A stretch of 32,237 nucleotides of DNA from Rubrivivax sp. (lineage in GTDB: Bacteria; Pseudomonadota; Gammaproteobacteria; Burkholderiales; Burkholderiaceae_C). Position 1 is the stretch's first letter. The number at the start of each line of letters is the position of its first letter. Below are positions 13,662 through 32,237 of this stretch, in pieces. The DNA lies in contig JAHBZS010000053.1 of NCBI GenBank assembly GCA_019635285.1, positions 1-32,237 of the forward strand, in the 5' to 3' direction. The position numbers were made by a program, and so were the translations under genes. The notes under the pieces are model-generated. The model was not told the origin of the DNA, ran no database searches, and worked only from the letters and a program-made list of their open reading frames with translations.

Positions 13662-13848
13662 ACCCTGCGCGCGGCGCGCTGCGGGATGAGCGCTGGGGAA
13701 CGGCCCGGCGCGCTCATGTCGACGCCCCTGCGCGCGCAGCGCTCCGGGGTGAGCGCTTGGGAGCGGCCCGGCGCGCTCATCCGGCAACCCTGCGCGCTGC
13801 GCGCTCCGGGGTGAGTGCTTGGGGGCGGCCCGGCGCGCTCACAGCACG
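13662..13848. repeat. Three tandem 62-63 bp repeats between galM and glpD
   Basis: Copies begin at 13662, 13725 and 13787. Each contains a GC-rich lead (CCCTGCGCGC...), then (G/A)TGAG(C/T)GC and GCGCTCA(T/C), which form an 8-bp inverted repeat around GCTTGGGAGCGGCCCG-like spacer. Copies 2 and 3 keep pairing by G-T wobble. The galM stop codon lies inside the third copy, and the glpD ribosome binding site lies in or near the first. The unit is probably a dispersed intergenic element amplified locally; the whole array is open in the glpD frame. Confidence 0.85.
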
Positions 13849-16883: not shown

Positions 16884-17339
16884 ATGAAGCCCCTGTCCCT
16901 CGTCGCCCTTGCCGCCGCCGCCCTGGCCGCCGCCCAACCGGCCGCCGCCCAGTTCCAGAAGCCCGAGGATGCGGTCAAGTACCGGCAGAGCGCGATGTTC
17001 CTGCAGGCGCAGACCTTCTCGCGCGTGGCGGCGATGGCCAATGGCCGCGTGCCCTTCGACGCCAAGGTGGCCGCAGACAACATCGACCTCGTCGCCGCGC
17101 TGAACCGCATGCAGTTCACCGCGTTCGTCGACGGCACCGACAAGACGGGCAACACGCGCGCCAAGCCGGAGATCTGGGCGCAGAAGGACAAGTGGAACGC
17201 CGCGGTGGCCAAGAGCCAGGAAGACGTGGCCAAGCTGGTGGCCGCCGGCAAGACCGGCAACATCGACCAGATCAAGGCGGCGGCCGGGGCGGTCGGCGGC
17301 AGCTGCAAGAGCTGCCACGACGATTTCCGCAAGGAGTAG
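16884..17339 (+). CDS. Cytochrome c' (periplasmic, class II c-type)
   Basis: A 151-residue exported heme protein. Residues 1-23 form a signal peptide ending AAAQ. The mature four-helix-bundle part starts with QKPEDAVKYRQSAMFL, and the heme site is C141-K-S-C144-H145 near the C-terminus, the class II layout. Cytochromes c' bind NO and are linked to nitrosative stress or electron transfer. GGAG lies 6 nt before the chosen ATG; an upstream in-frame start would add a non-signal-like leader. It diverges from the b561 gene. Confidence 0.9.
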   Translation: MKPLSLVALAAAALAAAQPAAAQFQKPEDAVKYRQSAMFLQAQTFSRVAAMANGRVPFDAKVAADNIDLVAALNRMQFTAFVDGTDKTGNTRAKPEIWAQKDKWNAAVAKSQEDVAKLVAAGKTGNIDQIKAAAGAVGGSCKSCHDDFRKE

Positions 17340-17437: not shown

Positions 17438-17503
17438 TCAGGTACCGTGCTGGGCCGCGTCGGCAAAGCCGAGCACGACGCGGCGGGTCATCGCGCTCTT
17501 CTT
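17438..17503 (-). pseudogene. Diverged second copy of the alaX 3' end
   Basis: Read on the minus strand this stretch encodes KKSAMTRRVVLGFADAAQHGT and a TGA stop. Functional alaX ends KKSAMTRRVILGFADAAAGRG with its stop. Over 17453-17504 against 17586-17637 I count 42 of 52 identical bases at a constant offset of 133 bp. Most differences are silent or conservative (AGC/TCA for Ser, CGC/AGG for Arg, TTT/TTC for Phe, GTG/ATC for Val/Ile), as if both copies had been translated at some time. No upstream alaX sequence accompanies it, so it is a 22-codon orphan end. Confidence 0.65.
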
Positions 17504-17515
17504 GTGGCGACGGCA

Positions 17516-17560
17516 CGCAGGCTTCACCTGCTTCACATCGCTGCGCGATATGAGCCTGCG
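17516..17560. repeat. Nested stem-loop beside the alaX cloverleaf
   Basis: CGCAGGCT (17516-17523) pairs perfectly with AGCCTGCG (17553-17560), and two more pairs follow a one-base bulge. Inside, ATCGC-TGC-GCGAT (17537-17549) forms a triloop hairpin. It ends 3 nt before the cloverleaf and fills the space between the two alaX-end copies. Confidence 0.5.
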
Positions 17561-17563
17561 CCG

Positions 17564-17637
17564 GAAGAAATCAGCCGCGGCCTGCGGCCGCGTCGGCGAA
17601 GCCGAGGATGACCCTGCGGGTCATCGCTGATTTCTTC
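17564..17637. other. 74-nt cloverleaf palindrome covering the alaX 3' end
   Basis: The outer stem GAAGAAATCAGC (17564-17575) pairs perfectly with GCTGATTTCTTC (17626-17637). Three perfect hairpins sit inside almost without gaps. They are CGCGGCC-TGC-GGCCGCG (17576-17592), TCGGC-GAA-GCCGA (17593-17605) and GATGACCC-TGC-GGGTCATC (17607-17625). Only G17606 is unpaired outside the loops, and every loop has 3 nt. The alaX stop codon and last 21 codons are encoded within it. On the minus strand the GC-rich CGCGGCC arm followed by TGATTTCTTCC could also act as an intrinsic terminator. Triloops of 3 nt rule out a tRNA. Confidence 0.85.
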
Positions 17638-18302
17638 TCGATCTTCGTCACCACCACGCCGCCGATGTCGGCGGTGTTGGCCACGTGCGTGCCGCCGCAG
17701 GGCTGCAGGTCCACGCCTTCGATCTCCAGCACGCGGATGCGCCCCTGCCCGCGTGGTGGCTGCACGCTCATGCTGCGCACCAGTTGCGGGTTGGCGTCGA
17801 GCTCGGCCTCGCTGATCCAGCGGTGCCGCACCGGGTGCGCCCCGGCCACCAGGCGCGCGATGCCGGCGCTCAGCGCGTCCTTGTCCAGCGGCTCGTTCAT
17901 GTGGAAGTCGAGCCGCGCATAACGCTCGGTGATCGAGCAGCCGTTCACCGGATGCGGAATCAACGCGCACAGCAGGTGCGTCGCCGTGTGAAAGCGCATG
18001 TGGGCGCGGCGGCGCGCCGCGTCGACGCGGGCGGTGACGTCGCTGCCCGGCACCAGCCACCCCGGGTCCGCGCCCTCGGCCAGCAGGTGCAAGATCTCGC
18101 CGGGCGCGTCGCCCTTGCGCGTGTCCACGACGGCCAGCTCGCGGCCGTCGGCCAGCTGCAGCACGCCCGCATCGCCGGCCTGCCCGCCGCCCTGCGGATA
18201 AAACACCGTGCGGTCCAGCCGCACGCCTTGCGCGTCGGCCGACAGCACGCGCGCCCTGCAGTGCAGCAGCGTCGCGTCGTCGCGGAACAATTCTTCGGTC
18301 AT
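17571..18302 (-). CDS. Alanyl-tRNA editing protein AlaX
   Basis: A free-standing editing enzyme that hydrolyses Ser- or Gly-mischarged tRNA-Ala. The 243-residue protein has the N-terminal beta-barrel segment RTVFYPQGGGQAGD and the zinc-binding editing core H105-TAT-H109 and C202-GGT-H206. FHMNEPL and SMSVQPPRGQGRIRV lie between them. The start ATG gives MTEELFRDD; a TTG two codons upstream is open but unlikely. The C-terminal 21 codons overlap the cloverleaf palindrome. It follows the dehydratase-like gene after 75 nt that contain a hairpin, so it may be co-transcribed with attenuation. Confidence 0.9.
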   Translation of the reverse strand: MTEELFRDDATLLHCRARVLSADAQGVRLDRTVFYPQGGGQAGDAGVLQLADGRELAVVDTRKGDAPGEILHLLAEGADPGWLVPGSDVTARVDAARRRAHMRFHTATHLLCALIPHPVNGCSITERYARLDFHMNEPLDKDALSAGIARLVAGAHPVRHRWISEAELDANPQLVRSMSVQPPRGQGRIRVLEIEGVDLQPCGGTHVANTADIGGVVVTKIEKKSAMTRRVILGFADAAAGRG

Positions 18303-18323
18303 GCGCAACGCGCGCCCGCGCCG

Positions 18324-31631: not shown

Positions 31632-31717
31632 GGGCTTACGCGGCGCCGAGAGCGGCAACTGCTTTCGACGCATAGCGGTCGAAGCCCACAGCCGTTCTTG
31701 CGGGGTTTCAGCGCATC

Positions 31718-31942
31718 GCGCCAGGCGGCACCTGCCAGGCGCTCATGCTGCGGCGGTCGGCCCTTCGGACCGACTGCACTGCGGTGCTCGCCCCGGGGTC
31801 GTGCCGCATAACTCGCTACGCGCTGCGCGCTGCGCTCAAACAGATGCGGCAAGCATGAGGACGAAGCGCGCTGCGCGCGCCGACCCCGGGGCTGCGCTCC
31901 TCGTCGCCGCAGAAATCGCCCCTGCCAGGTGCCGCCTGACGC
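31718..31942. repeat. Large nested foldback
   Basis: Three successive arm pairs face each other about one centre. The outer pair is 31718-31739 with 31921-31942 (20 of 22 pairing, GCG-CAGGCGGCACCTG-CAGG). The middle pair is GCCCCGGGGTCG (31790-31801) with CGACCCCGGGGC (31881-31892). The inner pair is TGCCGCAT (31802-31809) with ATGCGGCA (31844-31851). A smaller hairpin (31756-31774) lies in one arm. Confidence 0.7.
31745..31843 (-). repeat. LFERS-type repeat, minus-strand copy
   Basis: Read on the minus strand it begins CTGTTTGAGCGCAGCG, continues through a GAGTT block and a CGAGCACCGCAG block, and its translation starts LFERSAQRVAS. It aligns with the plus-strand copy at 32095 with gaps. 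Confidence 0.5.
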
Positions 31943-31957
31943 GAGGTCGTGGCCCCT

Positions 31958-31980
31958 GTGGTGTTCGCGTCGAACACCAC
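31958..31980. repeat. Perfect 10-bp triloop hairpin
   Basis: GTGGTGTTCG (31958-31967), loop CGT, CGAACACCAC (31971-31980). Every base of the stem pairs. No gene end lies nearby to explain it as a terminator. Confidence 0.75.
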
Positions 31981-32045
31981 GTGCGCTGGCCCAGGCCGCG
32001 GGCGGATCGACGGCAGGGCGCCTATGCGACGCCGAGAAGCGCAGA

Positions 32046-32150
32046 GCCCATGGCCAGCGCGCGCAGCGCGCCACAACCTCTGACTTCGTCGCGACTGTTT
32101 GAACGGAGCGAACGCAGTTCGCGCAGTGAGTTGGCGACGAGGCCATGGGC
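32046..32150. repeat. Nested inverted repeat enclosing the plus-strand LFERS copy
   Basis: GCCCATGGCC (32046-32055) pairs perfectly with GGCCATGGGC (32141-32150). TCGTCGC (32086-32092) pairs with GCGACGA (32134-32140). At the centre GCGAAC-GCA-GTTCGC (32108-32122) forms a triloop hairpin. GCGCTGGCC at 31983-31991 can alternatively pair with GGCCAGCGC at 32052-32060. Confidence 0.65.
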
Positions 32151-32190
32151 GCGAGCATCGCAGGGGACCCCGCCCACGGGGCGGGGCGTC
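32095..32190 (+). repeat. LFERS-type repeat, plus-strand copy
   Basis: It begins CTGTTTGAACGGAGCG and its translation starts LFERSERSSRSEL. From memory, repeats with this translated signature recur in beta-proteobacterial intergenic regions; I could not check this. It lies in opposite orientation to the copy ending at 31843. Confidence 0.5.
32168..32186. repeat. Perfect 8-bp triloop hairpin
   Basis: CCCCGCCC (32168-32175), loop ACG, GGGCGGGG (32179-32186). It follows the plus-strand LFERS copy. Confidence 0.6.
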
Positions 32191-32237
32191 GCATCGAAGC
32201 CCTGACGGCGATCCGCCCGCGGCCTCGCGCCACGGCT

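Follow-up and report, generated by a model that had tools for sequence, protein, structure and literature searches.

The window analyzed here is the whole 32,237-nucleotide stretch of Rubrivivax sp. contig JAHBZS010000053.1. On its minus strand, positions 17571 to 18308 hold alaX, which encodes an AlaX-type tRNA editing protein (Pfam tRNA_SAD); the start codon is TTG in the open reading frame list, and an ATG is present at 18302. Convergent to alaX, on the plus strand, lies a cytochrome c′ gene (16884 to 17339; Pfam Cytochrom_C_2, 6.5e-35). The 3′ end of alaX takes part in a 74-nt cloverleaf at 17564 to 17637, composed of the first bases of A1 (the gene end in use), three triloop hairpins, and an inverted arm (A′). 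Its perfect 12-bp outer stem pairs 17626 to 17637, the coding arm at the start of A1 (GAAGAAATCAGC on the minus strand), with 17564 to 17575, the A′ arm in which the start of A1 is inverted (GCTGATTTCTTC on the minus strand). Within the stem are hairpins of 7 bp (17576 to 17592; 3-nt loop, TGC on the plus strand), 5 bp (17593 to 17605; 3-nt loop, GAA), and 8 bp (17607 to 17625; 3-nt loop, TGC on the plus strand), the last of which contains an AGG arginine codon. In total there are 32 pairs (12 + 7 + 5 + 8), and G17606 is the sole unpaired base outside the loops. This geometry agrees base for base with that described in an earlier sequence-only reading of this DNA, including the one unpaired base. 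Read on the minus strand, the cloverleaf encodes the final residues of AlaX and the stop codon. The same reading had stated that the palindrome forms the coding end of alaX, and part of it does, with the TGA stop codon (17571 to 17573) falling inside the A′ arm of the outer stem.

DNA folding of positions 17554 to 17647 returns the cloverleaf, the minimum-energy fold having two extra outer pairs. The folding energy, −34 kcal/mol, lies at z = −5.97 relative to 200 dinucleotide shuffles (mean, −19.2; SD, 2.48), none of which folded as well.

The cloverleaf is half of a larger arrangement, in which it is adjoined by a repeated element that we call E1 (17502 to 17564) and by a displaced second alaX 3′ end that we call A2 (17438 to 17503). 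Both of these neighbors were overlooked in the sequence-only reading. E1 lies on the minus strand (covariance model, 76.3 bits) and consists of stem P1 (17560 to 17563 with 17511 to 17514), P2 (17533 to 17553), P3 (17517 to 17531), and an unpaired 3′ tail. A2, also on the minus strand, reads KKSAMTRRVVLGFADAAQHGT-stop and belongs to no gene. A repeat scan detected it as a 51-nt relative of the alaX end at 17453 to 17503, with 82% identity. The differences between A1 and A2 in the window are mostly synonymous or conservative, and one serine codon differs at all three bases (TCA versus AGC). Because so many of these differences are synonymous, recombination appears to be needed, and duplication followed by decay would be insufficient.

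The sequence-only reading had proposed that the cloverleaf is itself a mobile or structure-specific element. Searched against its own genome, a 94-base query found itself and, as the sole other match, the displaced alaX end (88% over 42 nt), whereas the stretch between the two alaX ends (query 17490 to 17572) matched further sites in the same genome. Thus, the part of the idea that involves a structured element of a mobile type stands, but the repeated unit is E1 and not the cloverleaf.

E1 is a structured repeat present across the family

E1 is a repeat of 55 to 65 nt that folds as a three-helix junction with GCCGNANCC on its 3′ side. Scanning the window plus 400 kb of its genome gave three E1-like matches, one of them doubtful, and Markov copies gave none. 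A similarity search across the genus with the 63-base E1 was limited by noise and missed the window's own copy, and it was replaced by pattern searches. Within the genus (Rubrivivax and its kin), 35 of 81 genomes had the core pattern of E1 (reversed control, 0); in the family, 51 of 299 did, representing 34 of 141 genera (control, 0). A covariance model raised the count in the genus to 51 of 81 genomes; the window's genome holds 6 copies and genome G024 holds 31. In a class-wide sample, the model detected E1 in 2 of 369 genomes, both of the same family, in a search that scored 14 candidates per genome, compared with 66 genus-wide, and may therefore miss copies. Plasmids and phages searched for E1 yielded no match. 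Rfam gave no match at gathering score in 10 E1 loci, and on the window stretch it returned two matches that were far below gathering and at chance level.

We examined base pairing in 40 of 55 nonredundant copies; the 55 derive from 69 copies after removal of five odd ones and of lengths outside 54 to 66 nt, and the 15 omitted from the alignment include forms with a short P3. The three helices are paired in 95.1% of cells, compared with 27 to 43% in slid registers. Cells changed on both sides number 66, versus 25.5 (SD, 3.3) in shuffled alignments, in a test to which invariant P2 pairs contribute little, since P2 is partly fixed by the search pattern. Counted by pair, change on both sides shows no excess (5 versus 4.9 in shuffles). 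P3 varies freely, and its pairing is mostly kept. Among 21 further matches fetched by the model, whose alignment is fitted to the model itself, 97.1% of cells are paired and 36 are changed on both sides (versus 9.9; SD, 2.3). When mispairs are read on the gene strand, G.T exceeds A.C (33 to 10 and 16 to 3), a hint that the structure may act as RNA of the gene strand.

E1 copies follow unrelated genes

Copies of E1 follow unrelated genes, including alaX, ftsW, metK, and sucC. Pfam searches of the genes that precede E1 identified ftsW, an ABC ATPase, an aspartate/ornithine carbamoyltransferase (argF type), a SIS-domain protein (which we take to be glmS from its ending), a flavocytochrome c sulfide dehydrogenase, ribonucleotide reductase, an ATP-grasp coenzyme A ligase (sucC type), S-adenosylmethionine synthetase, an amino acid kinase with a PUA domain (proB type), and AlaX. 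The neighboring genes at E1 junctions are presumably murG, phoU, groES, and groEL. At 56 of 98 loci, an open reading frame of at least 150 codons on the same strand ends 4 to 70 nt before the E1 core; the mirror arrangement occurs at 20 of 98. At another locus in the window's genome (L057), the end of the ABC ATPase gene (pstB, judging by its ending) is present twice with E1 between the copies.

Several other placements were noted in passing. On contig C64 of the window's genome (G000; L058 and L351), E1 lies between groES- and groEL-like genes, with no clear flanking repeat by eye. At L209, E1 lies beside a tRNA-Ser gene, and a 54-nt stretch that includes the first part of the tRNA is repeated on the far side. 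E1 arrays extend over several hundred bases at the end of the SIS-domain (glmS-like) gene in L219 and L274. At L396 and L399, E1 apparently lies antisense at the start of a gene, a placement that differs from its usual position at gene ends; the duplicated stretch there encodes MAEIKNYTLN on the other strand.

A minority of E1 loci retain a second gene end

The order seen at alaX recurs elsewhere: the gene end in use (A1), an inverted copy of its start (A′), E1, and a second gene end (A2). The direct repeat is typically the last 20 to 65 nt of the gene, including the stop codon. A flanking direct repeat reaches at least the 95% null score at 33 of 77 E1 loci or arrays, and 44 of 77 fall below it; the null comprises 763 comparisons, among them pairs of the same gene across species, which lengthen its tail. 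We then considered 20 of the 21 matches found by the model alone. Eight exceed the 95% null and 12 do not; three of the eight (L391, L393, and L400) are the argF-type end already seen in other species, and the test also includes two array-like loci (L384 and L388). Fewer than half of E1 loci therefore retain a clear duplication. Among 35 cores from other genera, which include three read on both strands, 16 score at least 13, the two L297 rows among them being chance-like. Some pairs are identical (34/34 at L260 and 35/35 at L235), and the repeat at L033 reaches a gapless score of 68. Of 40 registered cases, 20 have ANAA (from the first or second base on) at the A2 border of the repeat and 19 have it at the A1 border; the background is 1.7% of left-flank positions.

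The inverted arm matches the gene end in use rather than the displaced one. Pairing of A′ with A1 exceeds the 95% null in 23 of 40 cases and the 99% null in 17, whereas pairing with A2 does so in 4 and 2, respectively; these are 40 registered cases from 123 cores, some of doubtful register, and, as in the other E1 counts given here, loci were counted irrespective of phylogeny. An earlier arm test against A2 alone had given 7 of 46 above the 95% null, a weakness explained by the side-by-side test of A1 and A2. In the window, the A1/A′ pair is the 12-bp outer stem of the cloverleaf. Since the outer stem is a gene end plus its own inverted copy, its letters vary by gene. For example, proB-type ends at L291 and L298 read CAACTTGGTGCTCG-TGTAA-CGAGCACCAAGTTG and then E1; the two arms fold back perfectly and leave the stop codon in the loop. 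The proB-type end at L297 has different letters and the same fold, with one mispair.

Sites without E1 were found at the ftsW-murG junction. From the 76 genomes that have ftsW, the best 30 loci were taken, and the gene end was readable in 22 and unreadable in 8. Of the 22, 4 have E1 with two copies of the gene end and 18 do not have E1. A plain ATGA overlap of the two genes occurs in L375, L378, L381, and L383. Several of the 18 hold other sequence past the stop codon, and L359 may hold an E1 variant missed by the strict pattern. L354, L356, and L382 keep both genes intact: A1 supplies the ftsW stop codon, and A2 carries a murG-like start.

At L270, L266, and L235, the stretch past A1 looks like a decayed copy of the murG start that was turned into perfect triloop hairpins. 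These loci bear on a purely mutational origin, in which template switching perfects quasi-palindromes and slippage duplicates the gene end, with no need for a mobile element. The hairpins at the decayed murG starts fit such an origin, as does the creation and upkeep of RNA hairpins by template switching reported in PMC8794818. However, the same E1 follows unrelated genes throughout the family, and slippage cannot supply E1. We therefore regard mutation by itself as quite an improbable source of the arrangement.

Relatives of alaX differ in element content and codon choice

We compared 88 alaX loci, of which 14 carry E1, 17 a different spacer (E2), 4 a second end only, and 53 neither. This comparison of alaX 3′ ends, advocated in the sequence-only reading, uncovered matched changes in some relatives and lack of the element in others; it is not the case that all relatives share one sequence without covariation. 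That reading had also raised the prospect of an assembly artifact. An error confined to a single genome is unlikely because related layouts recur in many other assemblies, including those of L038 and L033, both of which carry E2 and not E1.

A second end with at least 70% identity is present in 22 of the 35 element-bearing loci, and in 21 of these 22, A2 reads as an AlaX end through to the stop codon. Mean identity to element-free alaX ends is 0.749 for A2 and 0.764 for A1, with A2 equal to or above A1 in 9 of 22 loci. Since A2 is on average no closer to element-free ends, the view that A2 is the older end draws on its coding appearance and on single cases.

Two other repeats were seen at this gene end. 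The E2 spacer (GGGG..CGCTCA..TGAGCGATCACC) replaces E1 after alaX in L033, L035, L038, L050, and others. Its pattern matches 12 of 81 genomes of the genus, and E2 may be a sister family of E1. A third palindromic repeat (GGGGTGAGCCCGGAC..) follows or interrupts the alaX end in L032, L006, L024, and L051.

Codon choice in alaX goes along with the element. The second arginine codon of the TRRV motif is AGG in 28 of 35 genes with an element and 15 of 53 without (Fisher, 2.8e-6, ignoring shared ancestry). When the alaX tail plus 25 nt downstream was subjected to synonymous randomization, the three element classes had mean fold z values of −2.93, −2.68, and −3.77, compared with −0.36 for element-free tails (Mann-Whitney, 3e-9, again ignoring shared ancestry). 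A difference in folding is also seen in the coding part of the tail alone (Mann-Whitney, 9e-5, with shared ancestry likewise ignored). These comparisons suggest that element-bearing alaX genes favor synonymous codons that fold.

The cloverleaf also resembles a terminator by pattern. A pattern scan found four terminator-like sites in a 501-base stretch, compared with 0.2 (SD, 0.4) in shuffles. The hairpin at 17576 to 17592 with the tail GCTGATTTCT is terminator-like on the minus strand, and that at 17607 to 17625 with the same tail on the plus strand. By pattern only, and with GCTGATTTCT not being a plain T run, both strands thus show the G+C-rich hairpin and T-rich stretch of an intrinsic terminator. 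Given that alaX and the cytochrome c′ gene converge, it is plausible that the cloverleaf is a two-way terminator between them.

These properties led us to weigh whether the cloverleaf and E1 together form a selected RNA structure, that is, a functional 3′ element acting in termination, mRNA stability, or processing (at alaX, as a two-way terminator between convergent genes), with the repeats as a by-product. The terminator-like sites on both cloverleaf strands, the synonymous codon choice favoring folding, the excess of G.T over A.C mispairs, and the predominance of E1 after same-strand genes (56 versus 20 mirrored among 98) are all as such a role would predict. However, the distribution is patchy, with 53 of 88 alaX loci having neither an element nor a second end, and the direct repeats and A′ are left unexplained. 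Furthermore, copies occur between same-strand neighbors (ftsW-murG, pstB-phoU, and groES-groEL), where a terminator would be harmful; for this reason, termination is not a general role of E1. We consider an origin by selection for RNA structure a serious possibility, albeit one that is rather less than probable.

A proposed mechanism of insertion at gene ends

Taking together the layout, its recurrence at unrelated genes, the pairing of A′ with A1, the E1-free sites, and the covarying structure of E1, we think it probable that E1 is a small noncoding palindromic element of a mobile kind that inserts at the 3′ ends of genes, duplicating the end and leaving a foldback copy. At alaX, E1 would have inserted at an ANAA-type site within the last codons, so that the gene end came to be present twice: A1, adjacent to the gene and in use, and A2, displaced beyond E1. 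A′, lying between A1 and E1, repeats the first bases of A1 in inverted orientation and ends at the insertion point. We envision that the gene end becomes a 3′ overhang through staggered nicks some 20 to 80 nt apart; the overhang would snap back and be extended as far as the nick, giving A′. E1 would then be joined, and gap filling would produce A2. Subsequently, transfer between lineages by homologous recombination, together with template-switch correction, may preserve the match between A1 and A′ and convert the region to triloop hairpins. RNA hairpins are reported to arise and to be maintained through template switching (PMC8794818). For alaX, the outcome would be new synonymous codons, a longer C terminus, a stop codon within the A′ arm, and, as suggested by the pattern scan, a terminator-like structure working both ways.

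Transfer could also take place through a circle. Recombination between the repeats would excise an A1-A′-E1 unit, which would enter a single gene end on another chromosome, the recipient's old end becoming A2. The synonymous A1/A2 differences in the window, the retention of a coding appearance by A2 in 21 of 22 loci, and tandem units at L282 (an argF-type gene), L257, and L008 are consistent with such circles. No circle was seen, and the spread of E1 to new genes would remain unexplained. We judge this route possible but rather unlikely; it is compatible with insertion at gene ends and could supplement it without replacing it.

If E1 does insert in this manner, it would be a mobile element tolerated at essential genes and at overlapping pairs such as ftsW-murG, since the insertion itself restores the gene end. 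It would also preserve natural traces of foldback DNA synthesis, provide a way for protein C termini and stop codons to be rewritten, exemplify codon choice that goes along with a neighboring element, and allow the origin of compensatory changes to be tested where stems and codons overlap.

Relation to known repetitive elements

E1 was not described in the literature searched (open-license papers). Rickettsia palindromic elements are mobile palindromic DNAs that add sequence to proteins and are translated inside genes. The likeness to them drawn in the sequence-only reading holds as an analogy only, because E1 sits after the stop codon; here, it is the rewritten gene end alone that is translated. 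As in insertion with target duplication, E1 is flanked by direct repeats at a minority of loci (33/77 and 8/20), and a single-copy site is seen in relatives at ftsW-murG. Readings of the structure as an integron attC site or a phage attachment site were dropped after comparison by eye with known motifs.

SINE-like elements are short structured units with target duplications of variable length and an A-rich start of the duplication, and E1 shares these three traits. E1 could be a SINE-like element, the first in bacteria. Its structured RNA of some 60 nt would be made as the tail of the host gene's mRNA and copied into ANAA sites close to gene 3′ ends, with snap-back copying of the exposed end and long target duplications of variable length. 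In that event, each insertion would rewrite a protein C terminus with the gene still working. Reverse transcriptase (RVT_1) is present in 10 of 16 genomes searched, including the window's genome, G024, and G026, but was not found in the E1-rich genomes G277, G077, G048, and G040, and so does not track E1. We hold the SINE-like reading to be unlikely.

REP elements and BIMEs with their RAYT (Y1) transposases are a further point of comparison. Like them, E1 is short, palindromic, repeated, mostly extragenic, oriented, and nonautonomous, as would be expected of a REP-type element moved by a RAYT. It differs in being a three-helix junction, in its low copy number (6 in the window's genome), and in the long duplications of gene ends and the locus-specific inverted arm that often flank it. 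Of 12 genomes searched, 5 have a Y1 transposase, and none was found in the window's genome, G024, or G026; it does not track E1 among the 12. As far as the accessible text of PMC2817692 extends, REP elements have a GTAG-type foot and a single hairpin and, like their IS200/IS605 relatives, make no larger duplications; E1 has three helices, GCCGNANCC at its 3′ side, and direct repeats of about 20 to 65 nt at many loci. Both transposase and structure thus differ from the E1 case, and movement by a RAYT seems to us very improbable.

Two organellar cases offer partial parallels to E1. Coding palindromes in Nematomorpha mitochondria are inverted repeats within coding sequence, as here, with no adjoining repeated element described in the accessible part of PMC6649704. 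Hairpin-forming elements of sponge mitochondria are small repeated hairpins that have likewise been read as invasions; the sections of PMC2800124 at hand describe no gene-end duplication of the kind seen with E1. A survey of stem-loop families in 40 genomes (PMC2267715) names Bordetella, and neither Ralstonia nor Burkholderia was found in the text of it available to us.

Other repeats in the window

Two additional repeat regions were observed in the window. At 31716 to 32225, near the contig end, there are interlocking inverted repeats of 34 to 41 nt with about 150 nt between arms. At 13663 to 13842, three near-copies of a 55-nt stretch are spaced by 62 to 63 nt, directly after the stop codon of an aldose epimerase-like gene on the minus strand. 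Similar sequence occurs after ftsW in L377 and near E1 in L223, and these repeats may represent a second family at gene ends.
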